Source: a virus
IMG/VR virus record: IMGVR_UViG_3300030331_001691
Span: 1-31,945 of that record
Reading direction: 5' to 3' (one strand)
Length of the DNA stretch: 31,945 nucleotides
Position 1 is the first letter of the stretch. Every line of letters begins with the position of its first letter. The notes beneath the pieces are model-generated. The model ran no database searches, had not been told where the DNA came from, and saw nothing but the letters and a program-made list of their open reading frames with translations. Below, piece by piece: positions 15,071-31,483 of this stretch. The position numbers and the translations under genes are program-made.

Positions 15071-15071
15071 T

Positions 15072-15782: not shown

Positions 15783-16190
15783 ATGGAAGAAGATTATGTA
15801 GACATACAACCAGATGACTTGTTAGAGGTTACACTTAAGGAATCGGATGATTTTCTTAAGGTACGAGAGACTTTAACGAGGATCGGCATATCGTCAAAGA
15901 AAGAAAAGAAACTATGGCAGTCCTGTCATATACTACACAAGCGTGGTAAGTATTATATTGTTCACTTCAAAGAACTGTTTGCACTTGATGGATTACCAAC
16001 AAATCTCTCCGACAATGATATCTTCCGTCGAAATACAATTGCTGATTTGTTGGAAGAGTGGGGCCTAATTGATATTGTCGAAAAAGATCCAGAAGATGAA
16101 AGAGTCCCAATACACCATTTAAAAATTATTCCTTATCGGGACAAGGGAGATTGGGAGCTTTGCCCCAAATACCACATAGGTAAAAAATAA
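15783..16190 (+). CDS. regA: Translational repressor RegA
   Basis: 135 aa (T4: 122). RegA binds AU-rich start regions of early phage mRNAs, including those for gp44, gp45 and itself in T4, and blocks translation. It is very similar to T4 RegA: LEVTLKESDDFLKVRETLTRIGI, WQSCHILHKRGKYYIVHFKELF, DLLEEWGLIDIV, and the end WELCPKYHIGKK. It carries an extra N-terminal MEEDYVDIQPDD of twelve residues. AAGG at 15770-15773 lies nine nt before the start. The next T4 gene would be 43, but here the glycan cassette begins. Confidence 0.95.
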   Translation: MEEDYVDIQPDDLLEVTLKESDDFLKVRETLTRIGISSKKEKKLWQSCHILHKRGKYYIVHFKELFALDGLPTNLSDNDIFRRNTIADLLEEWGLIDIVEKDPEDERVPIHHLKIIPYRDKGDWELCPKYHIGKK

Positions 16191-16206: not shown

Positions 16207-16905
16207 ATGAAACTAGTGATAAAATTTCCGACCCGAAGTAGACCCCATAAATTTAAGCCTCTTCTAGACAAGTACATCGATTTCTTGTCCGGTAAACACG
16301 ATATTAGATTCGTTATTACGATGGACGAGGACGATGAGACTATGAACAATGATGACATAAAGTCTTTCATTGAAAATCACAAGTCAAATGGCATTGATAT
16401 TGTCTACCACTATGGACAGTCCAAAACAAAGATTGAAGCTTGTAACGCAGACCTCAAAGGAGAGTCTGGTGATGTCTTACTTTTAATCTCTGATGATATG
16501 GTCCCCGTGGAGAGGAATTATGATGATATCATTTACGAGAATTACCAACAAGTCTTTCCCGATTATGATGGCGCAATTAAGTTTCACGACGGCCTACGAC
16601 AAGACGCTCTGATGACATTACCATGTCTTGGATGGAAACTCTATGAGAAGTTTGGGTATGTGTATTATCCTGAATACAAATCAGTGTATCCTGATAACGA
16701 ACAGACTGAAGCTTGTATTTTGATGGGCAAGTTAGCAATTAGTCGTAAATGTATTATTCGACACCAATGGGTTCATGGTGGCCACGAACAGGCTGATGAA
16801 CTGCATCAGAGGAACGAAAGTAGCGAACACTACGAAACCGATGGTAAGCTCTATCGTGAACGTAAAGCTAGAAACTTTGATATTGAAACGGTAACATTGA
16901 AGTGA
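16207..16905 (+). CDS. GT-A fold glycosyltransferase
   Basis: 232 aa. It begins with the nucleotide-sugar strand MKLVIKFPTRSRPHKF, then FVITMDEDDE, and carries LLLISDDMVP with a DD pair (96-97) in the place of the metal-binding DxD of GT2-type enzymes. A later segment, TLPCLGWKLYEKFGYVYYPEY, looks like the acceptor half. No membrane segment. Donor and acceptor unknown. AAGGAA (16193-16198) supports ATG 16207. First gene of the glycan cassette, 16 nt after regA. Also possible: a nucleotide-sugar enzyme with degenerate site. Confidence 0.72.
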   Translation: MKLVIKFPTRSRPHKFKPLLDKYIDFLSGKHDIRFVITMDEDDETMNNDDIKSFIENHKSNGIDIVYHYGQSKTKIEACNADLKGESGDVLLLISDDMVPVERNYDDIIYENYQQVFPDYDGAIKFHDGLRQDALMTLPCLGWKLYEKFGYVYYPEYKSVYPDNEQTEACILMGKLAISRKCIIRHQWVHGGHEQADELHQRNESSEHYETDGKLYRERKARNFDIETVTLK

Positions 16906-17489
16906 AAAAAATTTATATCGATTGTGGTGGGAACTTGGGACAGGGGTACGATCAAATCACTGAAAAGTTTTCGGACATAGATTTTGATCAGGTTCATATC
17001 TTTGAACCAAACCCAGAGACCTGTAAGTTTCTTTCTAATAAAGAATACAAACACGATGACGTAAAGATTTATCAAAAGGCTGCATACGATAAAAACGTAA
17101 CAAAGATGCTTACTGTAGAATTTGATCCAACGGAAGGTGTACAGGATTGGGTTGGGGGTGCTACAAATATTTTAGAAGATAATTTTGTTAAACCACACTA
17201 CATTGACGATAAGTATATTAAACCCAATGATGTTCAGGTTGATTGTATGGATTTTTCGAAGTGGTTGTCCGACAACTTTTCTGCTGATGATTTTATCGTA
17301 TTGAAGTTGGACTGTGAAGGTTGTGAATATGAAATCTTGGATAAGATGATACTTGAAAAAACCATAGAGTATGTGGATCAAATTATAGTTGAATGGCATA
17401 ATCACATGAGGAATGATCCTGTAAAACCTATTGGATATTATCTTGAGAAGTTTAAACAGTATGATATTGGGTATACACAATGGTATTGA
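16902..17489 (+). CDS. FkbM-type SAM methyltransferase
   Basis: 195 aa from GTG 16902 (GTGA overlap with the previous stop). IYIDCGGNLGQG is the SAM-binding loop; HIFEPNPETCKFL carries the acidic ribose-binding end of strand 2; VDCMDFSKWL, FIVLKLDCEGCEYEIL and IIVEWHNH follow the FkbM order (DCEGxEYEIL is diagnostic). Such enzymes O-methylate sugars in polysaccharides and glycopeptides. The partner is probably a sugar placed by the neighbouring glycosyltransferases. Confidence 0.82.
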   Translation: MKKIYIDCGGNLGQGYDQITEKFSDIDFDQVHIFEPNPETCKFLSNKEYKHDDVKIYQKAAYDKNVTKMLTVEFDPTEGVQDWVGGATNILEDNFVKPHYIDDKYIKPNDVQVDCMDFSKWLSDNFSADDFIVLKLDCEGCEYEILDKMILEKTIEYVDQIIVEWHNHMRNDPVKPIGYYLEKFKQYDIGYTQWY

Positions 17490-18298
17490 ATGTATCTACG
17501 GTCTGTACAAAGTCTAGAATCAAAGAGTTTCTAGTTACAAAGAAAACACTCGAATTGTTTCACGAATGTGAGTGGAGTGTGGTTTGTGATGAGTTCACAT
17601 CGAAGTACTTCGAAGGTGATAAAAGATTCACGCCGGTCAAGATAGTAGACATGGAAGGAAGACACTACAATTCAAGTGAGTCTTCTGCTAGTGATTTTTT
17701 TGAGTTGGTCAAGAATAAAATGGTTGCGATGAAAGAGGGTATCAGGTCTGGTGGGTATAGTCTTTTTCTAGATACGGATCTAATTTTCGTTTCGCCTCTT
17801 GATGATTGTTTTTTTGACTTCCTGAAGGATGATTCTAAAACACTTTTTCTGACCAGTCATTGTCATACCGAAGAACACTCCGACAATCGAGAAACCTACG
17901 GAACATACAATGTTGGTATGTTAGCCTCCAAGACTATTGATTTCACTGACAAGTGGATAGAGGAAACTGAAAGGTTGAATTGTAAGTATGGGTTAGAACA
18001 GAAACCAGTGACCACTATTGCGAATGAGATGATGGATCAGGTTACCGTTGCAGACTCCAATTACAACTATGGGTGGTGGAGATCGGTAATTTCCGACGAT
18101 CATTCTCGACTAACTTCGGACAATGGTAAACTTTGTTTGGATGGTAAGGAAATCATAAACATACACGCACATACAGATCCGCAAAACTCTAGAGGACCGT
18201 ATGAGATAAATTTCCTAAACGAGACTTTTAGGAAAATGACCGACAGTGATAAATATGGTGAAGTGTTTGATATAATTCGTGAAGTTTATGGTATGTGA
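17480..18298 (+). CDS. GT-A glycosyltransferase with DTD motif
   Basis: 272 aa. Metal-binding DTD (98-100) in YSLFLDTDLIFVSPLDD, preceded by KNKMVAMKEGIRSG and followed by YNVGMLASKTIDFTDKW, matching the GT8/GT77-like nucleotide-diphospho-sugar transferase layout. INIHAHTDP near the end supplies the third metal-site His typical of GT8. Overlaps the methyltransferase gene by 10 nt and the next by the TGATG junction. Sugar unknown. Confidence 0.75.
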   Translation: MVLNVSTVCTKSRIKEFLVTKKTLELFHECEWSVVCDEFTSKYFEGDKRFTPVKIVDMEGRHYNSSESSASDFFELVKNKMVAMKEGIRSGGYSLFLDTDLIFVSPLDDCFFDFLKDDSKTLFLTSHCHTEEHSDNRETYGTYNVGMLASKTIDFTDKWIEETERLNCKYGLEQKPVTTIANEMMDQVTVADSNYNYGWWRSVISDDHSRLTSDNGKLCLDGKEIINIHAHTDPQNSRGPYEINFLNETFRKMTDSDKYGEVFDIIREVYGM

Positions 18299-19140
18299 TG
18301 AATAAGATAAAACTACAACCGAGATATCCAGTCTATCCACCATATCACCGAGGGGAGTATCTGGAAGATTACTTTATGACTTTCTTTGATGATACGAAGA
18401 TCGTTACTGACAGAACTTTCATTCCGGTGAGTTGGACTACCTATTACTGTGATGGATATAGTCGTCAAGACTTGCAAAGAGCTCTTAATGATCTTGATCG
18501 AGACGGTAAATATTTTACGGTATGTCAGCATGATGATGCTGTCCAAGAGAACTTACCAGAAGACACTTTGATTTTCTCTGCGGGTGGTAACTGCGAGAAG
18601 CCTGGGGTGATCCCTATTCCCTTGGTCTGTTCGGAGATCCCATCTGAGTTCTTACGAGAAGAGGATAGGGACACACTTATTTCCTTTGTTGGGTCGGACA
18701 CACACCCCATCCGAAAAGAATGTCTTAGACATCTTCTAGAAAAGGAAGGTGTTGAGTTATACTATAAACCTTGGGCAAATACCGTACCGATTGATCAGTT
18801 TGATTTTTTTGTAGGTAAAACACTTCGAAGTAAGTTTTGCCTTGCACCTAGAGGATATGGTAAATCTAGTTTTAGAATGTATGAAGCCATGAGGTTGGGG
18901 TCGATTCCAGTTTATGTTTCAGATGAACACTACACTCCCTTTTCAGATGTGATTGATTGGTCTGAGTTCTCTGTGTTGATTTCTGTATCACAGATACCCA
19001 AGATGTATGATATACTACTGTCGTACACTGACGAGGACATCTCTCGTATGCAATGCAGAATGAAAGAGGTCTATCGAGACTACTTTACTATGGACTCTGT
19101 TTGTCTAAATATTAAAAGAATTTTAGAGGATGAAAATTAA
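18298..19140 (+). CDS. Exostosin-like (GT47) glycosyltransferase
   Basis: 280 aa from ATG 18298 (TGATG overlap; a GTG three bases earlier is less likely). The C-terminal part has the exostosin signature SKFCLAPRGYGKSSFRMYEA-MRLGSIPVYVSD (178-209), followed by PFSDVIDWSEFSVLIS. The N-terminal half contains FSAGGNCE and LISFVGSDTHPIRKECL as in GT47 proteins. A GT-B type inverting enzyme, usually adding hexuronic acid, galactose or arabinose. No membrane anchor. Exostosin-like enzymes are unusual in phages. Confidence 0.82.
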   Translation: MNKIKLQPRYPVYPPYHRGEYLEDYFMTFFDDTKIVTDRTFIPVSWTTYYCDGYSRQDLQRALNDLDRDGKYFTVCQHDDAVQENLPEDTLIFSAGGNCEKPGVIPIPLVCSEIPSEFLREEDRDTLISFVGSDTHPIRKECLRHLLEKEGVELYYKPWANTVPIDQFDFFVGKTLRSKFCLAPRGYGKSSFRMYEAMRLGSIPVYVSDEHYTPFSDVIDWSEFSVLISVSQIPKMYDILLSYTDEDISRMQCRMKEVYRDYFTMDSVCLNIKRILEDEN

Positions 19141-19142
19141 TT

Positions 19143-19880
19143 ATGAAAAAAGTACTATTTGTTATTGCAAACTACGACAACGAAAAACAACAAATCTTTG
19201 ACGAAAAGATCTCTCCCAGAAATCAGGAGTACGCTGATCTTCATGGTTTTGATTACACTGTGAGTAAGGGTGGGGATGTCTTCCGAGGCAATCCTACTTG
19301 GTGGAAGTTTACCTTGATTCGAGACATGATTGAATCGGGTGAACTACAACCCGGTGATAAGTTGACGCACCTAGATGCTGATATGTTTATTGTCAAACCG
19401 GAAAATGACTATGTTACCGACAAGTCTTTTTCTTATGCCATCGACAACGGCAACACACACTGTATGGGATCGTATAGTATAACCGTGAACGACTGGTCCG
19501 TTGACATGATCAATCGTATTCTCGACGAGGACATGTATAACAAAATGAAAAACGATTCTCATTGGATTGGGTTTAGGGAACAGGCATGTTGGTATACACT
19601 ATGTGGTATTGTTCCTCATAGTTGGGAACCATTTTTAGAGATGGATGACAACGGATGGCACTCGAATATAACCGAGAACACTTGGTATGGTGTGCCTGAA
19701 CTCGAAGAACATGTCGAGATTAGAGGGCCCGAATGGAATACTACTCTTCTAGAGGATGACGCTGAAGATCCAGTTACCCAACAATTAATGAAGTATAATA
19801 TCACGAAGAGCAAAAAGGAAGATACCATCATCCGCCACTGGGCTGGTGGTCAACCTTGGGCCCCGGAAAAATGGATGTGA
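19143..19880 (+). CDS. GT34-like GT-A glycosyltransferase
   Basis: 245 aa. N-terminus KKVLFVIANYDNEKQQIFDEKISPRNQEYADLHGFDY is like the GMA12/MNN10 (GT34) family, with NPTWWKFTLIRDMI, metal motif DAD (78-80) in LTHLDADMFIV, and the closing IIRHWAGGQPW. GT34 enzymes are retaining galactosyl- or xylosyltransferases. Soluble here. Starts 2 nt after the exostosin gene. Confidence 0.75.
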   Translation: MKKVLFVIANYDNEKQQIFDEKISPRNQEYADLHGFDYTVSKGGDVFRGNPTWWKFTLIRDMIESGELQPGDKLTHLDADMFIVKPENDYVTDKSFSYAIDNGNTHCMGSYSITVNDWSVDMINRILDEDMYNKMKNDSHWIGFREQACWYTLCGIVPHSWEPFLEMDDNGWHSNITENTWYGVPELEEHVEIRGPEWNTTLLEDDAEDPVTQQLMKYNITKSKKEDTIIRHWAGGQPWAPEKWM

Positions 19881-20809
19881 AAATTTTATTCGTAACACAT
19901 CCTGATCCTAACCAACAGGGTGATCTGTTGGAGGTTGGTATTCTTCACGGACTCAGATCTCTAATGGGTCAAGATTGTGTGGACATTCCTAGAAAGAAAG
20001 TCATGTATCATGATTGGTCTGACACACCGAAGGAAAGTCTTCATGGTAGAGGTTTCAGTTTGTATACGGAACCAATCATGGACGTTGATCGGGATGTTAT
20101 CGATGAAGTTGATTATGTTTTTTATGGTAACATAAACATTGAACCTGACGAGAAGATAAACTCCCTAGCAAAAAAAGCAATCTACTTTTTGGATGGACAT
20201 GACCTATACGGCAACGCTCCTAGAATTATTGAATATGGTGGTGAAAGAGTTATTGGTTTACAGAGAGTACCTTGTTTCAAACGAGAACTGGTTGAGGATA
20301 ACGAGTACGCATACCCGATAGGATTTGGTATTCCAGAGTATCAGATTCGACCAATTGATCTTGAGAGGAAAACTCAAACATATCAAAAGACGGCTCCCGA
20401 CGACTCTTTGTTTCGCAATGTAACCGATCTTGGTGGTAGTAGATATCATCATAAGTTTACTGTGGAAGAAGAGTACTATGATGACTTGTCCTCTTCTTGG
20501 TTTGGTTTGACATGCAAGAAGGGTGGTTGGGACTGTCTTCGACATTATGAAATCATGGCGGCGGGATCTCTATTGTTGTTTAAAGACTACGATAAAAAGC
20601 CTCCGATGTGTTCGCCAGTGGATCTTCCATGTTTCTCTTATTCAACCCAAGAGGAACTGGATGAATTAACTTGTCGTTTGGTGGTTGACAACAAACCCAC
20701 TAGAGAGTATAATGAAATGTTGAATAGACAGAGGGAATGGTTGATTGGTAATGGAACTACCATTGCGAGGGCAAAACAAATCTTGGAGGTAATTGATGAA
20801 CCTAACTGA
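19871..20809 (+). CDS. CgeB-like GT-B glycosyltransferase
   Basis: 312 aa from ATG 19871; GTG 19877, which overlaps the previous stop as GTGA, is an equal alternative. VKILFVTHPDPNQQGDLLEVGILHGL begins a GT-B first domain. SWFGLTCKKGGWDCLRHYEI-MAAGSLLLFKDY (209-240) is the donor-site pattern of the YkvP/CgeB group (GWDxxRxYEIMAAG). ELDELTCRLVVDN and a final helical part follow. Substrate unknown. Confidence 0.75.
   Translation: MDVKILFVTHPDPNQQGDLLEVGILHGLRSLMGQDCVDIPRKKVMYHDWSDTPKESLHGRGFSLYTEPIMDVDRDVIDEVDYVFYGNINIEPDEKINSLAKKAIYFLDGHDLYGNAPRIIEYGGERVIGLQRVPCFKRELVEDNEYAYPIGFGIPEYQIRPIDLERKTQTYQKTAPDDSLFRNVTDLGGSRYHHKFTVEEEYYDDLSSSWFGLTCKKGGWDCLRHYEIMAAGSLLLFKDYDKKPPMCSPVDLPCFSYSTQEELDELTCRLVVDNKPTREYNEMLNRQREWLIGNGTTIARAKQILEVIDEPN
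20785..20789 (+). promoter_or_regulatory. Strong ribosome site for the methyltransferase at 20796
   Basis: GGAGG ends six nt before ATG 20796, inside the 3' end of the CgeB-like gene. It decides the start against the in-frame TTG at 20793. Confidence 0.65.
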
Positions 20810-21473
20810 AAAATATCAAATACAAATGAAGTATAATCAATTCGCACAGGGCGTCAGCCCAAACTTTCAGGATGCTGATGAACAACTTGCATTGGACCAC
20901 TTCGAAAAAACCGTGCTTCAGTTGATGGACAAGAAAAAAGATAAGTTTAGTATGATAGAACTTGGTAGTAATTATGCTTATTATTCCATGTTATTCAAAA
21001 AAATTCTTGGGCCAGATAAGACTTTTAACTTGCTTTTAGAACCTTATGAAACACATATGAATATTGGTAAGGAACATTTTGAACTAAATGAATTAGAAGG
21101 CATTTTTCTGGAAGAAAGAATTTATAATCCAGAAAAATGGTGTGGTATAGAATTTAGTTGTCCATCGATCACAATCGATACACTTCTGGAAAGATATGAG
21201 ATAGATGATCTTGATGTTTTGCATTGTGATATTGATCAGAGTGAAACTTATATGTTAGATGGATCGGTAAAATCGTTGACAGATAAAAAAATTGATAACC
21301 TTTTTATTATGACGCACGCTAAGGATTCTAATGAAGCGACCCAATCATCGAAAAAAGCAACTGAGCTTCACGAAGAGGTTAGATCTAGACTTCTGGACTT
21401 CGGTTATACTTTAGTGTTTGACCACGAAACATGTGACCAGGCTGGTGATGGTATGGTAATTTTTAAGAGATAG
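20796..21473 (+). CDS. FkbM-like methyltransferase, second copy
   Basis: 225 aa from ATG 20796. SAM-loop FSMIELGSNYAYYSMLF (ELGSNYAYYS 55-64), strand-2 region FNLLLEPYETHMNIGK, SITIDTLLERYEIDDLDVLHCDIDQSE, and DNLFIMTHAK. The order is that of FkbM methyltransferases, but the DCEG motif reads DIDQSE, so it is more divergent than the one at 16902. Probably methylates another sugar position. Overlaps the previous gene by 14 nt. Confidence 0.72.
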   Translation: MNLTEKYQIQMKYNQFAQGVSPNFQDADEQLALDHFEKTVLQLMDKKKDKFSMIELGSNYAYYSMLFKKILGPDKTFNLLLEPYETHMNIGKEHFELNELEGIFLEERIYNPEKWCGIEFSCPSITIDTLLERYEIDDLDVLHCDIDQSETYMLDGSVKSLTDKKIDNLFIMTHAKDSNEATQSSKKATELHEEVRSRLLDFGYTLVFDHETCDQAGDGMVIFKR

Positions 21474-21477
21474 AATA

Positions 21478-22230
21478 ATGAAAATTGATGAAATCACAAT
21501 TTGCTTACATGCAGGATCACGACAAGATGTGGTCGATAATCAGATGAAGGCTCTATCTGGTTTAGAAAACAAATATGATGTATATTGGAATAAACGCATC
21601 GAAAGATACCCCTACGCCTACGACAGTTATTCGGAATTGATTAATGAAGCCATTGTGACATCAGCTACAGAATTTTTCATTCTTGTCAACGACAGAGTTT
21701 TGCCTACCGTGGAACAAGCTGAAAAGATAATAAATCAACTGGAGTCTGGATTCGCTTGTGCTATGCAATGGAATGTTGGTTTCATGGGTATGTCGAAGGA
21801 GTTGATCAGAAGAATTGGTTGGTGGGATCAACGATACACAAATGGTGGATGGGAAGATAGAGACTGGGTGTTTCGTTTGATCGGAAATAATCTCGCGTTC
21901 TATGAAAGTCAAGAAAGTGACTACGACTTCAGTTGGAAGTCGCCTTTGCAGGTGTTGGATGGTGTGGAAGGATCTACACCCCACTGGAACAACAAGTGGA
22001 GGATAACACCCACGGAAGTGATTCAAATGATGCCGGATGAAGACTATCCAGACCTAAATGAAATGATAGGCGATGATCGGTTTGATATAAGTGATACTTG
22101 GAAAACTCATGAACATTCGTGCATCGCAATGGACGAGATGGGTAGACGGTGTAGGGGTTACGATAAACCAAACTCTGGCCCTCCCGGAACATTCTACTCC
22201 TTTAACAAGAAGGTGATTCTTCATGGTTGA
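21478..22230 (+). CDS. GT-A glycosyltransferase with GGWEDRDW motif
   Basis: 250 aa. EFFILVNDRVLPT carries NDR (71-73) in the DxD position. IGWWDQRYTNGGWEDRDWVFRLIG (114-136) matches the galactosyltransferase C-terminal pattern (GGxDxD; here GGWEDRDW), which holds the catalytic base. The last 30 residues contain SCIAMDEMGRRCRG with two Cys. Acceptor unknown. Four nt after the previous gene; overlaps the dehydratase gene by 8 nt. Confidence 0.72.
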   Translation: MKIDEITICLHAGSRQDVVDNQMKALSGLENKYDVYWNKRIERYPYAYDSYSELINEAIVTSATEFFILVNDRVLPTVEQAEKIINQLESGFACAMQWNVGFMGMSKELIRRIGWWDQRYTNGGWEDRDWVFRLIGNNLAFYESQESDYDFSWKSPLQVLDGVEGSTPHWNNKWRITPTEVIQMMPDEDYPDLNEMIGDDRFDISDTWKTHEHSCIAMDEMGRRCRGYDKPNSGPPGTFYSFNKKVILHG

Positions 22231-23236
22231 TAATAAAAAAATTATGATCATTGGTGGTAGTGGTTCCCTTGGTATGTCTCTGATCAAGAGACTTGGGGGT
22301 GACAACGAATTGTATATTCTCTCCAGAGATGAGTCTAAACATTGGTCTCTGAAAAATAAATTCAAAGAGAGCAATCTCAACTTCATGGTGTCGGACATCC
22401 GAGATTACGATCGAATGGAGAAGATTTTCAATAGAGTAAACCCCCACATCATTATCATTGCAGCTGCATTGAAGCATGTTGATGTGTGTGAATTAAGTCC
22501 CGAAGAAAGTATTGCTACGAACCTCTCAGGAGTTTCAAATGTTGTTGACATTGTAGAAAACAACCAAGAAACCCTATCGAATCTAGAAACAGTTTTGATG
22601 GTCAGTACGGACAAAGCGTGCAGTCCGATTAATGTTTATGGTATGTGTAAGTCCATCTCTGAGAGAGTGGTTCTAGAAAAGTCAAGACACATTCCCGGTA
22701 TAAAATTTGTTGCTACCCGATATGGGAATGTTTTGGAAACGAGAGGGAGTATCGTTCCTCTGTTTATGCACCAGGCAAAGAACAATGATTTTGTTACTGT
22801 GACCCGTGAGGACATGACTAGATTCGTGATGACTCTTGACGATAGTGTTGACCTCATTCTAAATTGCATTGAAAATGGCCAGAGTGGAGAGACATACATT
22901 CCAAAACTGAAAGCGATGAAGATTGTAGATCTTGCCGAAATTTTTGCCGATCGATATGGTAAACAGATTAAGGTGATAGGAATTCGTAGTGGTGAAAAGA
23001 TTCACGAAGATCTTATCAATGAAACTGAGTCTCTTCGAACTGTTGATATGGGTGATGTGTTTGTTGTTAAACCGATCTACGAGACAAAGATTTACAACGA
23101 TGAAGTCTTCAGATACGATAGTTCCGTGACGCTTACTAAATCTGAATTGATTGAATACTTCAAGAGTATAGATCTATTCGACAAGAATGTGGATGACTTT
23201 AATCAGACCATAAAGCTGGATGATATCAGAAAATGA
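22223..23236 (+). CDS. UDP-sugar 4,6-dehydratase (CapD/PseB-like)
   Basis: 337 aa short-chain dehydrogenase fold. NAD loop GGSGSLG (11-17), IIIIAAALKHVDVCELSPEESIATN, STDKA (128-132), YGMCK giving Tyr139 and Lys143, TRYGNVLETRGSIVPLF, TRFVMTLDDSVDLI, and SGEKIHEDLI. This is the FlaA1/PseB/WbjB group that converts UDP-GlcNAc to a 4-keto-6-deoxy sugar, some members also inverting C5. The catalytic Tyr is present, unlike in WbjB-type enzymes that use Met. Start ATG 22223 overlaps the upstream stop. Confidence 0.88.
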   Translation: MVDNKKIMIIGGSGSLGMSLIKRLGGDNELYILSRDESKHWSLKNKFKESNLNFMVSDIRDYDRMEKIFNRVNPHIIIIAAALKHVDVCELSPEESIATNLSGVSNVVDIVENNQETLSNLETVLMVSTDKACSPINVYGMCKSISERVVLEKSRHIPGIKFVATRYGNVLETRGSIVPLFMHQAKNNDFVTVTREDMTRFVMTLDDSVDLILNCIENGQSGETYIPKLKAMKIVDLAEIFADRYGKQIKVIGIRSGEKIHEDLINETESLRTVDMGDVFVVKPIYETKIYNDEVFRYDSSVTLTKSELIEYFKSIDLFDKNVDDFNQTIKLDDIRK

Positions 23237-23868
23237 AAAAATTGTTCTGTGGTTATCGAGATTGGTCCAAACGAATTTATGAATCTCTCAGTGAGAAACA
23301 CGATTTAGATTTTTGCGAGTCTCAATCACATCTGGAAACCCTGTCACCATCAGATTACTCTATGGTTTTTTTTGTTGGATGGAGTGACATAATTGGACCG
23401 GAGTGGGTAGAGGAAGTTGAGTGTATATGTTTACACCCTTCCATGTTACCAAAGTATCGTGGGGGAAGTCCTATACAGAATCAGATCTTATCCGGTGAAA
23501 GGTGGTCGGGTGTGACTTTGTTCAAGATGAACAATACTTTAGACGGTGGTGACATTGCCTGCCAGAAGTCATTTAGTTTGAGTGGTACATTAGATGAAAT
23601 CTTTACGAGAATAGAAGTTCTGGGTATTTCAATGATCGATGATCTGTTGTCTTCGGACGAAATTGTGTACACTCCACAGGATGATTCTGAAGCTACTTTT
23701 TGCAGTAGACGAACACCACAGATGAGTGAGATTCACCCGAGTGATTTTTTGAAGTTGACACCTGAACAACTTTATGATAAGATCAGATGTTTGCAGGAGC
23801 CATATCCTCTCCCTTACATAGTATGTAAAGGTGGTAAAAAATTGTTTATAAAGGATGTGATGATATGA
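23233..23868 (+). CDS. Formyltransferase (sugar N-formyltransferase-like)
   Basis: 211 aa. Residues 64-84 read CICLHPSMLPKYRGGSPIQ and 94-108 VTLFKMNNTLDGGDI, the formyl_trans_N active-site region. The catalytic His68 and Asp104 are present, but the Asn two residues before His (NxH in Fmt and ArnA) is Cys66. There is no C-terminal tRNA-binding domain as in Fmt, so a sugar N-formyltransferase acting with the adjacent PIG-L deacetylase gene is more likely. The donor would be N10-formyl-tetrahydrofolate. ATGA overlaps on both sides. Confidence 0.78.
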   Translation: MKKLFCGYRDWSKRIYESLSEKHDLDFCESQSHLETLSPSDYSMVFFVGWSDIIGPEWVEEVECICLHPSMLPKYRGGSPIQNQILSGERWSGVTLFKMNNTLDGGDIACQKSFSLSGTLDEIFTRIEVLGISMIDDLLSSDEIVYTPQDDSEATFCSRRTPQMSEIHPSDFLKLTPEQLYDKIRCLQEPYPLPYIVCKGGKKLFIKDVMI

Positions 23869-24476
23869 AAATGATCGTGTCTCCCCATGTGGATGATGAA
23901 GTTCTTGGGTGTGGTGGTATCTTAGATTCCAACACTCATGTTTTACATTTGGGTTTGTCTGAGAATGAGTTGCATGGTAATACTAATTTTACCAAAGACT
24001 ACAGACTGGAGGAGTTCTCTGAGATCATGTCGAGGACAAATCTGACTCATAAACTTCTCGAACACCCCGTCAACAATTACAGACAACAGGATTTGATTGG
24101 TGATATTGAACGGGAGATAAACGAAATCCGGCCTGAAGAAATCTACATACCACATCCATCATATAATCAAGATCACCGGGAATCATATGAGGCTTGTTTG
24201 GTGTCACTCAGGCCACATGACATCAATCATTTTGTGCCAAAGGTTTTTGTTTACGAACAACCACAGGTTCTCTGGAATAATAATTATAGAGAATTTAAAC
24301 CTACCTTCTTCAAAGAGATTGACATTAATCTAAAACTAGAACTGTATCTCTGCCTGAAGTCTCAGGTTAGAAATTTCCGTTCACCTGAATGTGTAAGATC
24401 ACTGGCTAAAATTAGAGGATCGCAGAGTAGATATGAATATGCAGAAGCGTATGAGATCTTGAGGTACGTTTCGTGA
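23865..24476 (+). CDS. PIG-L/LmbE-family deacetylase
   Basis: 203 aa. Zinc motif PHVDDE (7-12) at the N-terminus and HPSYNQDHR (97-105) are the metal and catalytic signature of the PIG-L family, which removes N-acetyl groups from GlcNAc-type sugars. The family usually has about 200-230 residues. It follows the formyltransferase (ATGA) and precedes the reductase (GTGA). Likely substrate is an acetamido sugar, either nucleotide-bound or in the glycan. Confidence 0.85.
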   Translation: MKMIVSPHVDDEVLGCGGILDSNTHVLHLGLSENELHGNTNFTKDYRLEEFSEIMSRTNLTHKLLEHPVNNYRQQDLIGDIEREINEIRPEEIYIPHPSYNQDHRESYEACLVSLRPHDINHFVPKVFVYEQPQVLWNNNYREFKPTFFKEIDINLKLELYLCLKSQVRNFRSPECVRSLAKIRGSQSRYEYAEAYEILRYVS

Positions 24477-25270
24477 AATATTTTGTATTTGGTTCGAATG
24501 GTATGATGGGTAAGTATTTTTGCTCTGTAGCAAAGAACGTTGTTCCCATCACCCGAAAAGATTATGATGTGATGAAAAATGATATTTCATTTTTGTCTGA
24601 TCTTCTTGTGAGAAAGGGAATGGAATCGGGGGATGTAATTATGAATTGTGCGGGTGCTGTCAAACAGAGAGAATTTCCTCTCAGTCAGTATGTAACAATC
24701 AACTCTTTATTTCCCCATCAACTAGAGTTTGTTGCAGAAAAGATGGGCGGCAAACTGATACATCTGACCACGGATTGTGTGTACGATGGACTCTCTGGTA
24801 ATTATGATGAAAACGATAATCATACATGCACAGATTGGTATGGTAAGAGTAAATCTCTAGGTGAACCCGAAAACAGTTGTTGCATAAGAACCTCTATTAT
24901 TGGTTTAGGTAGTGCTAACAATGTTTCCCTTTTGGATTGGTTTTTAAATGAAACCTCACAAGTTCCCCTGAAAGGTTACATGAATCATTTCTGGAACGGC
25001 ACGACCTGTTTGGAACTCTCAAGATACATCATAAATATGGGTAGTGATCTGTGGTCCGGAACTAGACATGTTTACTCAAACTCGGTCTCGAAGTTTGGTT
25101 TGCTTAAAAACTTCAATCGAACATTTGAATTGAACAAAGAACTGATTCCTGTCATGGATAATGTTGGATGTAACAGAACATTAACATCACTATACAATGA
25201 TCCGGTTTTGAATGGCATCGAAACCCAACTTGAGGAATTGAAGGTATATCATGAAAATAGCATTTGTTAA
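24473..25270 (+). CDS. RmlD-like NAD(P)-dependent sugar reductase
   Basis: 265 aa from GTG 24473. NAD loop GSNGMMG (7-13), MNCAGAVKQREFPLSQYVTINSLFPHQL, HLTTDCVYDGLSGNYDENDNH (98-117), Y123xxxK127 in DWYGKSKSLGE. The TTDCVYDG pattern and length are of dTDP-4-keto-rhamnose reductase/WbjC-like enzymes, which reduce a 4-keto sugar. It would accept the product of the dehydratase at 22223. A C-terminal ~100 residues binding the substrate is less conserved. Overlaps the next gene by 20 nt. Confidence 0.8.
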   Translation: MKYFVFGSNGMMGKYFCSVAKNVVPITRKDYDVMKNDISFLSDLLVRKGMESGDVIMNCAGAVKQREFPLSQYVTINSLFPHQLEFVAEKMGGKLIHLTTDCVYDGLSGNYDENDNHTCTDWYGKSKSLGEPENSCCIRTSIIGLGSANNVSLLDWFLNETSQVPLKGYMNHFWNGTTCLELSRYIINMGSDLWSGTRHVYSNSVSKFGLLKNFNRTFELNKELIPVMDNVGCNRTLTSLYNDPVLNGIETQLEELKVYHENSIC

Positions 25271-26354
25271 ATACGCTGGTGTTGCTGCTGGTGGAACCGA
25301 AAAATACTTACAGACAATTGCTCTACTGCTAAAAAAAGAGGGACATGAAGTTGATTATTATTACACTAATGTCGCTAGGTTGATCGGTAGAAACTGGCAA
25401 CATCCGCCAAACGATGCACATCGAAAGAAAATTTTAGACGAAGCCGGAATCAAAACGGTCGAGTGTTATGTTGATTATAAGGTGTGTGGTCAAACGCCAG
25501 AAGTTTGGCATGGAACTGACTTCTTTGAAAAATTTGATGAATCTGAGTATGATATTATTGTTAGTGGTAGACAGGGACAACCAGAATACCCTTTCACTGA
25601 AATAAAAAATACTAAGATCGTCGATACTATTCATGGAACTTGGGCAAGTGGAACACACCAATCAAATATTAAAAAGTGTATTCTCATAAGTCAAGAACAG
25701 AGACAGAAGTGGTTATCAAATGGTGGAGATGATAATAAGTGTGTGGTTATCCCCACGGTTGTCGCTGTCCCCGAAAAATACTCCACCGACTTCAGAGAAA
25801 AAAACAATATACCACATGATGCTTTTGTTTATGGTCTACACCAAAGAGATGATCCGAGTATATTTTCTCCGGTTTCTTTGGAGTGTTTTAGTCGTCTTGA
25901 AAATGAAAATACATACATGGTCATCCTTGGTGGTAGTTCTGCTCATCGAGACTATGTAAAAAATAATAACATAAACAGAGTTATTTTCGTAGAACATTCC
26001 TCTAGTTTAGATGTCATCCATAGTTTCCTTGACGCGATTGATGTTTACGCACACTCCCGACTGGATGGTGAGGTTTGTTCAGCGGCTATCATTGAAGCCA
26101 TGTATCATGGGAAACCGGTAATTACATGTCCCGGTACTTCGGAAAATGGACACATGGAACAGGTTGAGAATTGTGGATCTTGGTGTTCAACTGTTTCTGA
26201 ATATATTTCGGAGATGAATAAACTGCGTGAAGACAATGATTATTACTCTGAAAAGTCAGTGCTAACCAAAAATAAATACGAAAAAAAATACAAGTGTAAT
26301 GTTGTGGAAAAACAACTGTTGCAAGTTTTCAGTGATGTGGAGATTTCAAAATGA
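25251..26354 (+). CDS. GT4-family glycosyltransferase
   Basis: 367 aa GT-B enzyme. GGTEKYLQTIALLLKKEGHEV (14-33) is the acceptor-domain glycine loop. E274 and E282 form the EX7E donor motif in LDGEVCSAAIIEAMYHGKPVITCP. Start ATG 25251 lies within the reductase gene (20-nt overlap). Retaining enzymes of this family build LPS core and O-antigen. Donor unknown, but the neighbouring heptose genes make heptose a candidate. Confidence 0.85.
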   Translation: MKIAFVKYAGVAAGGTEKYLQTIALLLKKEGHEVDYYYTNVARLIGRNWQHPPNDAHRKKILDEAGIKTVECYVDYKVCGQTPEVWHGTDFFEKFDESEYDIIVSGRQGQPEYPFTEIKNTKIVDTIHGTWASGTHQSNIKKCILISQEQRQKWLSNGGDDNKCVVIPTVVAVPEKYSTDFREKNNIPHDAFVYGLHQRDDPSIFSPVSLECFSRLENENTYMVILGGSSAHRDYVKNNNINRVIFVEHSSSLDVIHSFLDAIDVYAHSRLDGEVCSAAIIEAMYHGKPVITCPGTSENGHMEQVENCGSWCSTVSEYISEMNKLREDNDYYSEKSVLTKNKYEKKYKCNVVEKQLLQVFSDVEISK

Positions 26355-27106
26355 TAAATGATGCGTATAAAACTGTTCTTGAAAAGTATCCCGAACACTA
26401 TAAGAGGGGTGATACTTTCAATGACGGGGATTTGGGTGGGTGTAGTGTCCACGGAGATCCTTTGACAGAAAATGTAAAGACATGGAAGTACTTGAAAGAA
26501 AAGTATGACCTAAAGAGTGCAGTCGATATTGGTTGTGGATTTGGACATCATACGGCTACTCTGAGAGATTATGTTGGTATACCCGAAGTCCTCGGTATCG
26601 AGGGGTCTTCTAAAGTTGTAGAATGTGCGTGTATCCCCGAGGTAGTGTGTAATGATTACACCAAGTCAGCGTATGAACTGCCTAAGATTTTTGATTTTGT
26701 CTGGTCTACTGAATTTTTAGAACATGTAGATTCTAGGTATGTTAATAATTTTATGACAACAATTAAATCTTGTAAGTATGCTTTGGTTACTCATGGTTTA
26801 CCGGGACAAGCGGGTCATCATCATGTAAATTGTCAACCGGCAGAATATTGGATTGATGTTTTTAAGTCGTATGGTTTTGAATTCGACCAAGAAGAAACAG
26901 AGAAGTGTCGAGAGATGGCAAAAAATGATGTAGAGGAATTCCTAAGTTGGTATCGTGATCCCAATGGGGAGGCTTCTGGTTATTCAGCAAAAGAAAATTT
27001 AGAACTTCCCTTTGATGCTAACCCATATCGTGATACGAGTATAAACTTTATGCAATGGGCTTGGTTGTACAAGAGTGGATTATTTTTTAGAAACACATCA
27101 GTATGA
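26351..27106 (+). CDS. Class I SAM methyltransferase
   Basis: 251 aa. AVDIGCGFGHHTATL (57-71) is motif I; VLGIEGSSKVVECA gives motif II; FDFVWSTEFLEHVDSRYVNNFM is motif III of the UbiE/Methyltransf_11-type. A small insert with HGLPGQAGHHHVNCQPAEYWIDVFKSYGFEF follows. Typical sugar or small-molecule methyltransferase of polysaccharide clusters. ATGA overlaps on both sides. Confidence 0.82.
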   Translation: MINDAYKTVLEKYPEHYKRGDTFNDGDLGGCSVHGDPLTENVKTWKYLKEKYDLKSAVDIGCGFGHHTATLRDYVGIPEVLGIEGSSKVVECACIPEVVCNDYTKSAYELPKIFDFVWSTEFLEHVDSRYVNNFMTTIKSCKYALVTHGLPGQAGHHHVNCQPAEYWIDVFKSYGFEFDQEETEKCREMAKNDVEEFLSWYRDPNGEASGYSAKENLELPFDANPYRDTSINFMQWAWLYKSGLFFRNTSV

Positions 27107-28038
27107 ACATTACAAGATGTCCTTTTAGAGTGGGTTTAGCCGGTGGATCTACCGATCTGGAAACCTTCATTCAGGACAATGGATATGGTTCGGTGATTAG
27201 TTTTCCGATTAACTTATACACATATACGATTAGTCATAAAGATGTGTTGGGTAGAAACTCAATTGGAAACTACATTGTTAATTACTCAAGAAGAGAAGAA
27301 TGTAATCTTGTTGAAATTCAAAATGATGTGGTCAGAGAAGTGTTGCTTCATTTTGAAAAGGAATCATGTATGGTTACCCTAACGAGCGATGTCTCTTCTT
27401 CTGGTTCTGGATTAGCCGCTTCCTCCAGTTATATGGTTTCTTTGGTTAAAACTATTTCAGAGAGTCTGGGTAAATCATTGTCGAATTATGAATGTTGTAG
27501 ACTCGCATTGAAGTTGGAACGAAAGTTCAATCCCCTGACCGGTTATCAGGATCCCTATGGTTGTGGGTTGGGTGGACTGAAGAGATTGCACTTTACAGAT
27601 GGTGAACTTCCAGAAGTCCAAGAACTGGACTCGTCTGTGTTGAACGGTTTTGATATTTCTTTGGTACATACAGGTATGAGCAGATCATCTACTAGTATAT
27701 TACAAACGGTAAAACCAAATCTTAATTTGTTAGGACTTGTTGATGAAATGGAAAAATCTATTGTGTCGGGAAATGCTGTTGAGTTTTGCAGAATAATAAA
27801 CGAAGGATGGGAAGAAAAACAAAAAACATCTGATATTATTTGCAATCAAAAAATCAATGACATGGATCGTATTCTCTCTGGGATTGACGGTGTTCTTGCT
27901 AAGAGGTTATGTGGGGCCGGCGGAGGGGGTTTCTTTTTAGTTTTCTCCGAACCGGGTACTTTCGAATATATCGAACACAAATTTCCAGAATCTAGTCGGA
28001 AGGTTCAGGTAGATGAAGAGGGTGTAAGAAGTCTATGA
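27103..28038 (+). CDS. GHMP kinase, D-glycero-D-manno-heptose-7-phosphate kinase (HddA-like)
   Basis: 311 aa. Start TRCPFRVGLAGGSTDLETF (4-22), ATP loop SSSGSGLAASSS (98-109), and CGAGGGGFFLVF near 270 are the GHMP kinase motifs. RCPFRVGLAGGSTDLE is the HddA/FKP-type N-terminus. It phosphorylates C1 of heptose-7-phosphate. Next to it is a sedoheptulose-7-phosphate isomerase, so the pair is consistent. Overlaps neighbours by ATGA. Confidence 0.87.
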   Translation: MNITRCPFRVGLAGGSTDLETFIQDNGYGSVISFPINLYTYTISHKDVLGRNSIGNYIVNYSRREECNLVEIQNDVVREVLLHFEKESCMVTLTSDVSSSGSGLAASSSYMVSLVKTISESLGKSLSNYECCRLALKLERKFNPLTGYQDPYGCGLGGLKRLHFTDGELPEVQELDSSVLNGFDISLVHTGMSRSSTSILQTVKPNLNLLGLVDEMEKSIVSGNAVEFCRIINEGWEEKQKTSDIICNQKINDMDRILSGIDGVLAKRLCGAGGGGFFLVFSEPGTFEYIEHKFPESSRKVQVDEEGVRSL

Positions 28039-28553
28039 GATCTGTTGATACATTAACAAACATAAAGAAGTCTATAGATGAAATCGATGTCGATAAGGTG
28101 ATGGATCTTGATCTTATTGTCTCTAGTCATAAAGACATCATCATAATCGGCAATGGTGGTAGCAATGCAATCGCACAACATATGTCAGTAGACTATACTA
28201 AATTCCTAAAGAAACGATGTCATTCGTTTGGCGATAGTCCTCGACTCACTTGTTACATGAATGACTATGGTGTTGAAGACGCATATAAACAATATTTACT
28301 TGAGTTTGCTAGTAAAAAAACTTTGGTGATTTTGATTTCTTCTTCTGGAGAATCGGAAAATATTATTAGGTGTGCTAAATTTTGCGTTAAGAATAAACTA
28401 CCATTTGTGATACTTACTGGTTTTGATTCGGACAATTCGTTGAGAAGGGACTTCGGATCCAAATGTGATGTTGATATTTGGGTTGACTCCACTTCCTATA
28501 GTGTGGTAGAATGCACACACGAAATTTACTTACACTCTATTGTGGGGAACTGA
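28035..28553 (+). CDS. gmhA: Sedoheptulose-7-phosphate isomerase (GmhA-like SIS protein)
   Basis: 172 aa single SIS domain. IIIIGNGGSNAIAQHMSVDYTKFL, LISSSGESENIIRCAKF, FVILTGFDSDNSLRRDF, and VVECTHEIYLHSIVG. The pattern follows phosphoheptose isomerases from surface polysaccharide clusters. The residue in the position of the E. coli GmhA general-base Glu (AAEL) appears to be Asp (SVDY). Makes D-glycero-D-manno-heptose 7-phosphate for the kinase upstream. ATGA overlap with the kinase gene. Confidence 0.83.
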   Translation: MRSVDTLTNIKKSIDEIDVDKVMDLDLIVSSHKDIIIIGNGGSNAIAQHMSVDYTKFLKKRCHSFGDSPRLTCYMNDYGVEDAYKQYLLEFASKKTLVILISSSGESENIIRCAKFCVKNKLPFVILTGFDSDNSLRRDFGSKCDVDIWVDSTSYSVVECTHEIYLHSIVGN

Positions 28554-28555
28554 AA

Positions 28556-29251
28556 ATGATTTACTGCTTTGATGTTGATGGAACTATATGTGATTCGGAA
28601 ACAAACGACTACACACAGTCAACTCCGAGACCACACATGATCGAAAAGATTAATCGTTTATATCAGGATCACCACATAAAGATTTTTACTGCTCGTGGGT
28701 GTGTATCCGGCAAAGACTGGTCTGAGTATACAGAACAACAGTTGAGAGGTTGGGGGTTGAAATATCACGAACTCATTTGCAACAAGAAACCACACTTTGA
28801 TCTACTGGTAGATGATAAAGTTATACACGTTGATCGGTGGGTTGATGAATATTGGCCAAAAAAAGTTGGACTGATAGCAGGTTGTTTTGATATTCTACAT
28901 CCCGGTTATATTAAAATGTTCGAAGACGCAAGAACTGTGTGTGATTGGTTGATCATCGCATTGCACGAAAATCCAAACCAAGAAAGAAATGAAAAATACG
29001 AACCCATCTTCTCGGTTCAGGATCGTAAGAAAACTTTAGAATCCATTAAGTATGTGAGTAATGTTGTTACTTACAGAACGGAGGAAGATTTGGAAACTAT
29101 TATTAAAGAGATTGAACCAGATGTGAGAATCATCGGCAGTGATTACAGAGGCAAATCTATTACAGGTGAAGAATATTCTGAAGAGATATATTTCCACGAA
29201 AGAGATCATGACCACTCTTATAGTAAAGTTCGGAGAGAATTGAATGCTTAG
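28556..29251 (+). CDS. Fused HAD phosphatase and nucleotidyltransferase
   Basis: 231 aa from ATG 28556 with GGGGAA about eight nt before it; an ORF start at 28511 lies inside gmhA and is rejected. Residues 1-100: HAD phosphatase with FDVDGTICDSE (D6, D8), T45 in IKIFTARG, K78, and VDDK (85-88), of the capsule phosphatase (EcbF/BcbF-like) type. Residues 103-231: HldE/RfaE-C type cytidylyltransferase-like fold with AGCFDILHPGYIKMFEDAR (108-126) and FSVQDRKKTLESIKYVSNVV. The HxGH motif reads HPGY. This one chain could dephosphorylate heptose-1,7-bisphosphate and activate heptose-1-phosphate. Confidence 0.85.
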   Translation: MIYCFDVDGTICDSETNDYTQSTPRPHMIEKINRLYQDHHIKIFTARGCVSGKDWSEYTEQQLRGWGLKYHELICNKKPHFDLLVDDKVIHVDRWVDEYWPKKVGLIAGCFDILHPGYIKMFEDARTVCDWLIIALHENPNQERNEKYEPIFSVQDRKKTLESIKYVSNVVTYRTEEDLETIIKEIEPDVRIIGSDYRGKSITGEEYSEEIYFHERDHDHSYSKVRRELNA

Positions 29252-30167
29252 TGATAAAAAAAGTTCGTGTTTGGTTACCGGTGGTGCTGGATTCATTGGG
29301 TCTAATTTAGTTGATCGTTTGATTTTAGACGGTCATAGAGTTGTCTGTGTAGACAATGAATCTGCCGTTAGTAATGAAAAATTTTATTGGAATGAAAAGG
29401 CAGAGAATCATGTCGTTGATATTAGAGATCCTGAATGCGACAAACTTTTTAATGGTATTGATTATGTGTTTCATATGGCCGCAGAGTCTAGAATTCAAAC
29501 TGCAATAGAAGATCCAGAAAATGCTGTTGATGTTAACTGCGTCGGTACTTGTAAAGTGATGCAGTCTGCAAGAAAGCATGGGGTCAAGAGGGTGATGTAT
29601 TCCTCAACATCTGCTGCTTATGGTTTGACTGAAGTCTGCCCGCAGAAAGAAAACTTCCCCGAGGATTGTCTTAATCCATACTCGGTATCTAAAGTTGCCG
29701 GAGAAAAGATATGCAAAATGTATTGGGATCTTTTTGATGTTGAGTGTATCATTTTTAGATACTTTAATGTTTACGGAGAAAGATCTCCTGTGAGTGGACA
29801 GTACGCCCCGGTTCTTGGTATATTCTTAAATCAGGAACGGGATAATAAACCTCTCACCGTGGTGGGTACTGGAGAGAATCGAAGAGACTTTATTCATGTT
29901 TATGATATTGTTGAGGCAAATGTGTTAGCGATGGAAAAAGATCTTTCGTCGGAACACATTGGTGAAGTTTATAATGTTGGTTTTGGGGAGAATCACTCGA
30001 TCAATGAGATCGCGTCGATGATATCTCAAAACAAGATACATATTAGTGAAAGACCCGGAGAAGCAAAGACCACTTTGTGTGATTACTCCAAAATTAAAAA
30101 TGCTTTGGGATGGGAACCAAAGATCAAAGTAAACGAATGGATTGAACAAACAATGGAGAAATCATGA
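29244..30167 (+). CDS. NAD-dependent epimerase/dehydratase (GalE/WcaG-like)
   Basis: 307 aa. NAD loop GGAGFIGS (13-20), FHMAAESRIQTAIEDP, YSSTSAAYG (119-127), Y146xxxK150 in NPYSVSKVAGE, RYFNVYGERSP, and RRDFIHVYDIVEA. It belongs to the extended SDR family with GalE, RmlB and HldD. In this cluster it may be a nucleotide-heptose epimerase or a UDP-hexose 4-epimerase. The sequence does not decide. Start ATG 29244 overlaps the previous stop, with GGAGAG seven nt upstream. Confidence 0.83.
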   Translation: MLSDKKSSCLVTGGAGFIGSNLVDRLILDGHRVVCVDNESAVSNEKFYWNEKAENHVVDIRDPECDKLFNGIDYVFHMAAESRIQTAIEDPENAVDVNCVGTCKVMQSARKHGVKRVMYSSTSAAYGLTEVCPQKENFPEDCLNPYSVSKVAGEKICKMYWDLFDVECIIFRYFNVYGERSPVSGQYAPVLGIFLNQERDNKPLTVVGTGENRRDFIHVYDIVEANVLAMEKDLSSEHIGEVYNVGFGENHSINEIASMISQNKIHISERPGEAKTTLCDYSKIKNALGWEPKIKVNEWIEQTMEKS

Positions 30168-31483
30168 GTAAGCCATTTATGACACTGTGTATGATTGTGA
30201 AGGACGAAGAACATTGTATCGAGAGATGCCTAGAGTCCGTCGTTCCCTTTATTGACCGTTATGATATCAGTGATACCGGATCCAGTGATTCGACCAAGGA
30301 AAAGATCAAGAACTTTTTTGATTCAAAGGGTATTCCCGGAGAAATTTATGACGAACCCTGGCAAGGTTTTGGTAAGTCTAGAACTAAAGCCTTTGATAAT
30401 TGTAAAGACAAAGCGAAATATGCTTGGGTCATTGATGCTGATGATACGTTAGAAGGAGATTTGTCTGAGGGTATATCGTTCATGAAAAAAACGAATTTCA
30501 GTTCTTACAGTCTTCGAATCAGTAGAGGTGAAAATTTTACATGGTGGAGAAATCAAATCTTCAGACTCGAAGACAATTGGAGATATGTTGGTATTCTTCA
30601 TGAGTATGCTGATTGCGAGAACCGAGAGGGTAAACAAATGGCTCAGTTGCCCGGAGATTATAAAATTCACGCTAGGACCGAAGGTGGTAGAAATGTAAAC
30701 ATAACTCCAAAGGAGAAATATGAAAAAGATGCAGCACTACTTCTAGACGCTATAACGAATCCAGAATCTCCAGACTTCGAACCGAACAATGATAGATATC
30801 ATTTTTACTTAGCTCAAAGTTATTTTGATGCAGGTAACTTCGAAAAAGCAGCTCAGTGGTATGACAAAAGAGCTGCAATGGGAAATTGGCAAGAAGAAGT
30901 TTACTACTCAATTTATAGGTCAGCTATGTGTTCCGGAATCTTAGAAGAACCATTTGAAAGAACGGTTCTCAAGTTCATGGAATGTTGGAATTACAGACCT
31001 AATAGAGCAGAACCTCTTCACCAATTGTCTAGGGTCTTTAGGTTAAATAATAAACCTAGAATGGCTTATCTGTACGCAAGCGTGGGTGCGAAAATACCAT
31101 TCCCGCATCAAGACATTTTGTTCATAGCCGGTGATGTGTATGAATGGCAAATGTTAGATGAAGTGTCTGCTACTGCTTACTACGCTGGACAATTGGAGGA
31201 GGGACTGGACGCTACAAATAAACTGATTGATAAGTTTGATACGATTCCAGAGTCCGAACATCAAAGAATCAGAAACAATAAGCACATGTACGAACAGACC
31301 ATCAAGGAGAGAGACGCCAAAATAAGAGAACACATGAAGACCCGCGACGACTTGATGGAAAAGTATGACATAGAAGATAATAAGAAAAAGTTTGAGAATA
31401 AGAAGAAGATGACCGCCAGACAAAAGGCGTTTGAGAAGGCTAAAAAAGAAAGACAACGAAAGAGAAAAAAGTCAAAGGCATAA
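30164..31483 (+). CDS. GT2 glycosyltransferase with TPR-like and Lys-rich C-terminal domains
   Basis: 439 aa. Residues 1-200: GT2 domain beginning MTLCMIVKDEEHCIERCLESV (6-26), DISDTGSSDST, metal motif DADD (91-94) in WVIDADDTL, and an acceptor part with RLEDNWRYVGILHEY. Residues about 205-350: helical TPR-like repeats (HFYLAQSYFDAGNFEKAAQWYDKRA). The last ~80 residues are a Lys/Glu-rich coiled-coil ending KKERQRKRKKSKA. GT2-TPR proteins of the SunS type glycosylate peptides. A similar architecture recurs in large marine phages. Last gene of the cassette, just before a virion gene. Confidence 0.82.
   Translation: MSKPFMTLCMIVKDEEHCIERCLESVVPFIDRYDISDTGSSDSTKEKIKNFFDSKGIPGEIYDEPWQGFGKSRTKAFDNCKDKAKYAWVIDADDTLEGDLSEGISFMKKTNFSSYSLRISRGENFTWWRNQIFRLEDNWRYVGILHEYADCENREGKQMAQLPGDYKIHARTEGGRNVNITPKEKYEKDAALLLDAITNPESPDFEPNNDRYHFYLAQSYFDAGNFEKAAQWYDKRAAMGNWQEEVYYSIYRSAMCSGILEEPFERTVLKFMECWNYRPNRAEPLHQLSRVFRLNNKPRMAYLYASVGAKIPFPHQDILFIAGDVYEWQMLDEVSATAYYAGQLEEGLDATNKLIDKFDTIPESEHQRIRNNKHMYEQTIKERDAKIREHMKTRDDLMEKYDIEDNKKKFENKKKMTARQKAFEKAKKERQRKRKKSKA

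Follow-up and report, generated by a model that had tools for sequence, protein, structure and literature searches.

A fixed locus beside regA in an uncultured T4-like phage encodes a putative, exchangeable protein-glycosylation system

Why would a T4-like phage carry 15 kb of sugar genes next to regA, and on what acceptor would it place the glycans that they build? The question is raised by IMG/VR virus record IMGVR_UViG_3300030331_001691 (31,945 bases, henceforth the window), a linear and probably fragmentary stretch from an uncultured, apparently marine phage of the T4-like kind. Between regA and o31503, a gene for a putative virion protein, 19 same-strand open reading frames (ORFs; c1 to c19) fill positions 16207-31483; neighboring frames are -43 to +4 nt apart, often with a 4-nt ATGA or GTGA overlap, so that the 15-kb co-oriented cassette of mostly overlapping frames described in a first-pass annotation of this DNA stands as drawn. 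On balance, and with slightly better than even confidence, we read the locus as an exchangeable phage protein-glycosylation system, in which c19 primes a phage protein, probably one of the virion, and variable glycosyltransferases (GTs) extend the glycan.

Much of this argument is carried by c19, the last and constant gene. A profile of six c19 proteins matched GmaR (8e-16), SunS (3e-8), and ThuS (1e-7), and the six best PDB matches of the c19 AlphaFold model (predicted local distance difference test, pLDDT, 85) in Foldseek were SunS and ThuS structures. The protein has a GT2 domain followed by a TPR-like helical domain, as indicated by matches to PF00535 and, weakly, to TPR families, and by a model with a GT fold and then helical repeats; a DAD motif at residues 91-93 is conserved. 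We therefore predict from sequence and model that c19 is of a protein-glycosyltransferase type, nearest by resemblance to GmaR and SunS/ThuS, and favor a protein acceptor because of this resemblance. The GT domain of GmaR adds N-acetylglucosamine to flagellin and its TPR part has been proposed to bind flagellin (PMC9638930), while Caulobacter FlmG performs soluble, cytoplasmic O-glycosylation of flagellin (PMC7591256). Listeria GmaR and Caulobacter FlmG thus join a cytoplasmic GT to a protein-binding part and need no membrane carrier, as proposed here for c19; the window locus differs in being phage-borne, in having many extending GTs and in having an acceptor that is only a candidate. SunS and ThuS, the S-glycosyltransferases of glycocins, are the closest solved fold (16% identity), but unlike in their systems no glycocin peptide was seen at the window locus.

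Which protein might c19 prime? The adjoining gene, o31503, belongs to a family in which six of six members matched phrog_1084 (unknown) and four of six phrog_3304 (tail). Its model is immunoglobulin (Ig)-like (pLDDT 67.5), and Foldseek returned, besides a large number of Ig domains, phage baseplate and connector chains and a BppU-N protein from phage phiM12. We regard o31503 as a putative virion protein and a candidate acceptor of c19. A Gly/Ser/Thr-rich loop is kept in the o31503 copies that are paired with c19, and would be the natural place to search for glycan attachment.

The pairing itself recurs. Among the best 80 viral c19 loci, which are the closest matches and so no unbiased census, o31503 lies at most 250 nt downstream of c19 in 41 of the 75 with enough sequence, and the paired loci are scattered across the c19 tree (8 changes vs 26.7 when shuffled). 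Confirmed c19 relatives are encoded by at least 558 IMG/VR stretches, while the only matches from a search of isolates were Tunturi_5 (32%), uncultured megaphages, and short fragments; no cyanophage record yielded a c19, and o31503 had no match among isolates at E 0.01. Bacterial relatives of c19 (23-38% identity) are scattered over phyla. In one further arrangement a solitary c19 follows regA by 19-34 nt and precedes a dUTPase gene (L160, L162, L165, L166, L177, L185, L186, L194, L195, L196, and L199), with dUTPase-like and putative Nmad1-like genes downstream where sequence suffices. In the c19 tree the distinct lone copies fall essentially into a single clade. Thus c19 can occur without the cassette.

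In contrast to its ends, the interior of the locus is swapped among relatives. Core genes of close relatives are mostly 85-99% identical to those of the window, and relatives whose cassettes differ still have a 92-96% identical regA, yet their sugar genes are almost entirely other ones. Between the window and relative G002 the only reciprocal best matches were c1 (78%) and c19 (74%); with the sister contig G003, whose gp44, gp45, and regA are 96-99% identical to the window, they were c1 (78%) and c19 (71%) plus two pairs that are weak or partial, leaving c1 and c19 as the only clear orthologues. In G006 and G016 the identity of c1 is 53-57%, and c18 is 51-54% identical in G001, G006, and G016, where it also lies directly ahead of c19. 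One relative, L005, has a window-type cassette (c1-c6 and c8-c10 at 66-97%) with no match to c7. The first genes of G002 and G003 are 88-97% alike before the two diverge, a pattern that recombination within the locus would produce, and L019, whose regA is 66-68% identical to those of the window and G003, has one gene 94% and another 82% like those of G003, which indicates horizontal exchange.

The swap extends to the predicted chemistry. The G003 interior is a nonulosonic-acid set with NeuB (207 bits), a PseF-like cytidylyltransferase (122 bits), DegT aminotransferases, and a WecB-type epimerase (202 bits vs a cut-off of 210), a further likeness to flagellin glycosylation, whereas the window has heptose and amino/formyl-sugar genes; sister phages would therefore make chemically different glycans. 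The DegT-type aminotransferase of G003 is present as two short ORFs far apart within the cassette (L111 10442-11392 and L112 2909-3583), one matching mainly the C-terminal and the other mainly the N-terminal part of the family.

The position of the locus is fixed, though not as first supposed. The first-pass annotation had the cassette occupy the place of gene 43, and comparison of the regA-gp43 interval across relatives showed that gp43 is kept, beyond the cassette and o31503. A DNA polymerase B search found gp43 in 14 of 21 relatives' records; in G003 the order is regA, a 17.6-kb cassette, o31503, a dUTPase-like gene, and gp43, which starts 1.4 kb past o31503. The regA-to-o31503 interval has a G003-like layout in G002 (14.6 kb), G001 (8.3 kb), and G006 (11.6 kb), with gp43 downstream of the cassette in G001, G003, and G006 and at the far end of G002. 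Replacement of gene 43 by the cassette is thus rejected, and the window merely stops short of gp43. Cyanophage Syn1 has its gp43 about 2.6 kb beyond regA and lacks sugar genes in that interval, and many other regA loci have about 1.4-3 kb from regA to the matched part of gp43. Five loci in which an o31503-like gene (25-33% identity) directly follows regA look like empty sites (L016, L023, L033, L038, and L046).

How might such a locus work? The phage would make its own activated sugars in the cytoplasm: a nucleoside diphosphate (NDP)-heptose from the GmhA, HddA, HAD phosphatase, and nucleotidyltransferase functions, and an N-formylated amino/deoxy sugar from c9-c12. The first sugar would be attached by c19 to a protein of the phage, a virion protein being the likeliest and o31503 the first candidate, and the remaining GTs and methyltransferases would lengthen and cap the glycan. 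Swapping the interior would then alter the sugar coat of the virion, in the manner of bacterial loci for O-antigen or flagellin glycosylation.

Several points weigh against a protein-glycosylation system acting on the virion. The acceptor is a candidate only: the virion label of o31503 comes from PHROG and from fold likeness at a pLDDT of 67.5 only, Ig-like folds match widely, and some c19 loci have no o31503 nearby. The alignment of c19 with SunS, 16% identical, has a template modelling score of about 0.55, and the wall-teichoic-acid GTs TarS and RmlT also match the c19 model, more weakly. The sugar enzymes score below NCBIfam curated cut-offs, so that their exact substrates are not fixed, and none of the relatives is known as a complete genome.

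The main rival is remodelling of the host surface, which we consider unlikely but by no means negligible. It holds that the lipopolysaccharide (LPS) core, O-chain, or capsule of the infected cell is changed, for example against superinfection, by way of the host's lipid carrier and export machinery. Similar pelagimyophage clusters have been read in this way (PMC7029224); surface polysaccharides typically involve heptose, PseB-type, and exostosin functions, and teichoic-acid GTs come up as secondary matches to the c19 structure. However, c19, the gene held constant, is of protein-GT type and adjoins a virion-like protein gene, and the window cassette has neither flippase, polymerase, nor ligase. 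By 19-residue Kyte-Doolittle mean hydropathy (not TMHMM), no segment in its 19 proteins is transmembrane-like (maximum 1.24), none being like the membrane proteins of O-antigen or capsule systems (Wzx/Wzy or ABC type), and the cassettes of five relatives add next to nothing, a single borderline ORF in G006. The earlier description of the cassette as encoding only soluble proteins is upheld by this measure, and the data fit a soluble machinery that assembles its glycan on an acceptor in the cytoplasm, although the phage DNA that had been listed among the possible acceptors finds no support (see below).

A target other than the virion, be it a soluble protein, a host protein, or free glycans, strikes us as distinctly improbable: it would suit the c19 loci that lack a neighboring o31503, but not the recurrence of the pairing across the tree. 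Lower still we place hypermodification of phage DNA, with sugars carried on modified bases. Phage T4 glucosylates its own DNA, a precedent, and a putative Nmad1-like ORF and an ORF at 15045-15743 resembling 2-oxoglutarate (2OG) oxygenases by motif only (an H-x-D...H...R pattern as in 2OG-Fe(II) oxygenases) lie near the locus. Against this, the latter has no Pfam match, TET/JBP included, c19 resembles protein GTs, and PF00303 and PF00145 were unmatched in 14 relatives, all possibly partial genomes but including contigs of 118, 135, and 157 kb, which thus showed neither a thymidylate-synthase-family pyrimidine hydroxymethylase nor a C5-cytosine methylase; DNA decoration is left unsupported. The 2OG-like ORF was not found at the same spot in G002 or G003, and it may be part of the glycan locus, since a 37% relative sits within the G003 cassette.

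The cassette genes are under strong purifying selection. Compared with L005, the ratio of non-synonymous to synonymous substitution rates (dN/dS) is 0.013-0.083 for cassette genes (c5, 0.013) at dS 0.52-2.46, which is also where core genes fall (0.022-0.076); the gp62 and o13412 comparisons with G003 were disregarded because their frames are disturbed in that contig. These low ratios indicate genes in use, and functionless filler or captured host LPS DNA, akin to the "stuffer DNA" reading raised for cyanophage LPS clusters (PMC3037559), is thereby ruled out with near certainty, the more so as the frames are unbroken, the position fixed, and the ends conserved.

Table 1. Position and assignment of the cassette genes and their borders in the window
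Feature	Assignment	Position	Strand	Evidence
regA	Left border of locus	15783..16190	+	Translation-repressor family phrog_242, E 8e-57
c1	Putative glycosyltransferase, conserved first gene	16207..16905	+	phrog_14945 GT, E 1e-10
c2	FkbM-type methyltransferase	16902..17489	+	PF05050 3e-8, above cut-off
c3	Putative glycosyltransferase	17480..18298	+	Motif appearance only; no Pfam, PHROG or PDB match
c4	Exostosin/GT47-type glycosyltransferase	18298..19140	+	PF03016 4e-22
c5	Putative glycosyltransferase	19143..19880	+	Motif appearance only; no trusted family match
c6	Putative glycosyltransferase	19856..20809	+	Motif appearance only; no family match
c7	Probable FkbM-type methyltransferase	20793..21473	+	PF05050 9e-4, below cut-off
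c8	Putative glycosyltransferase	21478..22230	+	Motif appearance only; no family match
c9	NDP-sugar 4,6-dehydratase, PseB/FnlA/CapD type	22223..23236	+	PF02719 8e-77; PseB 259 bits, cut-off 408
c10	Sugar N-formyltransferase (inferred from context)	23233..23868	+	PF00551 4e-16
c11	PIG-L-type de-N-acetylase	23865..24476	+	PF02585 1e-7
c12	RmlD-type NDP-4-keto-sugar reductase	24473..25270	+	PF04321 3e-12
c13	GT4-type glycosyltransferase	25251..26354	+	PF00534 6e-8
c14	Methyltransferase	26351..27106	+	PF08241 7e-8
c15	HddA-type heptose-7-phosphate kinase	27103..28038	+	Top PDB match 3k85, E 3e-31; NF049969 85 bits, cut-off 600
c16	GmhA-type phosphoheptose isomerase	28035..28553	+	PF01380 2e-8; GmhA-type models ~50 bits, below cut-off
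c17	HAD phosphatase fused to RfaE/TagD-type nucleotidyltransferase	28556..29251	+	PF01467 3e-15
c18	NDP-sugar epimerase	29244..30167	+	PF01370 3e-59
c19	Conserved anchor, GT2 + TPR, protein-glycosyltransferase type	30164..31483	+	PF00535 1e-13
o31503	Ig/BppU-N-like putative virion protein, right border	31503..31943, runs off window	+	PHROG and Foldseek

The gene content agrees in outline with the first-pass annotation (Table 1), which had counted three methyltransferases (c2, c7, although below cut-off, and c14) and two sugar-nucleotide modules, now placed at c9-c12 (N-formyl/amino-sugar) and c15-c18 (NDP-heptose), but had overlooked the heptose pathway and the protein-glycosyltransferase type of c19. 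Of its eight GTs, half are backed by Pfam domains (c4, c13, and c19) or PHROG (c1), phage-encoded GTs being expected of a virion glycosylation system, whereas c3, c5, c6, and c8 retain a motif appearance only, with no family match even at relaxed limits and none in PDB. The GmhA, kinase, phosphatase, and nucleotidyltransferase functions of a GDP/ADP-heptose pathway are found in c15-c17, all below equivalog cut-offs, and the heptose substrate is consequently assigned by type and context. The nucleotidyltransferase models TIGR02199 (76 bits) and TIGR01518 (61 bits) both match c17 below cut-off, and its HAD part, which matches 9iqw, may have a GmhB-like role; we infer an ATG start at 28556 in an ORF that opens at 28511. 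For c4 the start is the ATG at 18298 in an ORF opening with GTG at 18295, and c10 matches Fmt, ArnA, VioF, and WlaRD structures. A perfect sigma-70 consensus (TTGACA-17-TATAAT) lies at 20685-20713, within c6, and qualifies the earlier statement that no internal promoter could be recognized; it is no evidence of a promoter, however, because promoter-like matches in the region are at chance (57 vs 53.7 in shuffles), as is the scan for the T4-late TATAAATA motif.

The left half of the window is filled by a T4-like core: gp23, a gp19-like protein, uvsY, uvsW, gp55, gp47, gp46, an RNase H/FEN-type nuclease, gp45, gp44, gp62, and regA, several of these names resting on a reading of translations and on the gene order of cyanophage Syn1. 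The gp23 region (1-1044) has a GC content of 54% vs 35-45% in the rest of the window. A pyrimidine dimer DNA glycosylase family protein is encoded between gp47 and gp46 (6052-6618), and a Cpn10-type co-chaperonin gene (13285-13578; Pfam 2e-7) adjoins gp44. The ORF between gp44 and gp62 (13412-14692) has an above-cut-off match (1e-7) to the Pfam family of the Druantia protein DruA and is about 87% conserved in L005 and G002.

How does the locus compare with known phage systems? The clusters of cyanophages P-SSM2, S-SM2, S-SSM7, SynMITS9220M01, and Bellamy are likewise large co-oriented blocks of sugar genes in T4-like phages, and SynMITS9220M01 shares the HddA-GmhA-HAD/nucleotidyltransferase-epimerase order of c15-c18. 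However, the LPS-gene clusters of P-SSM2, S-SM2, and S-SSM7 are located near hli03 or phoH (PMC3037559) and those of SynMITS9220M01 and Bellamy in tRNA-bearing stretches, unlike the cassette between regA and o31503. The host recognition cluster of pelagimyophages (PMC7029224) is also a hypervariable island with GTs in marine T4-like phages, but lies between VrlC and gp14, in a structural region with tail fibres, whereas the window locus lies between regA and gp43 and has conserved end genes. Going by the citation of Freeman 2023 in PMC12619734, mycobacteriophages, a different phage group, also encode glycosylation of their virion proteins. To call the locus a new phage decoration system, as the first-pass annotation had suggested, thus overstates the case, given the large sugar-gene clusters already described in phages (PMC3037559; PMC7029224), even though soluble decoration is supported. 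What sets the locus apart from known phage glycan clusters is that its position is fixed, its end genes are conserved, its anchor is of protein-GT type, and its chemistry can be swapped; in the open-access literature searched we found no description of a fixed locus with conserved ends and a swappable interior.

More tentatively, as a proposal that we hold at somewhat under even confidence, this may be a "serotype locus" widespread in uncultured T4-like phages, a constant protein-priming c19 beside a virion gene with swappable cassettes, by which the virions of near-identical phages would differ in carrying heptose and N-formyl sugars or sialic-acid-like sugars. The number of c19 relatives in IMG/VR suggests that the enzyme is common in environmental phages, although hardly any cultured phage has it. 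A testable role would follow for the puzzling sugar-gene clusters of T4-like phages, with one constant enzyme and one neighboring candidate acceptor. If true, lytic phages would vary their surface sugars by locus swapping, as bacteria vary their O-antigens, with a bearing on adsorption, phage-phage competition, and virion recognition.

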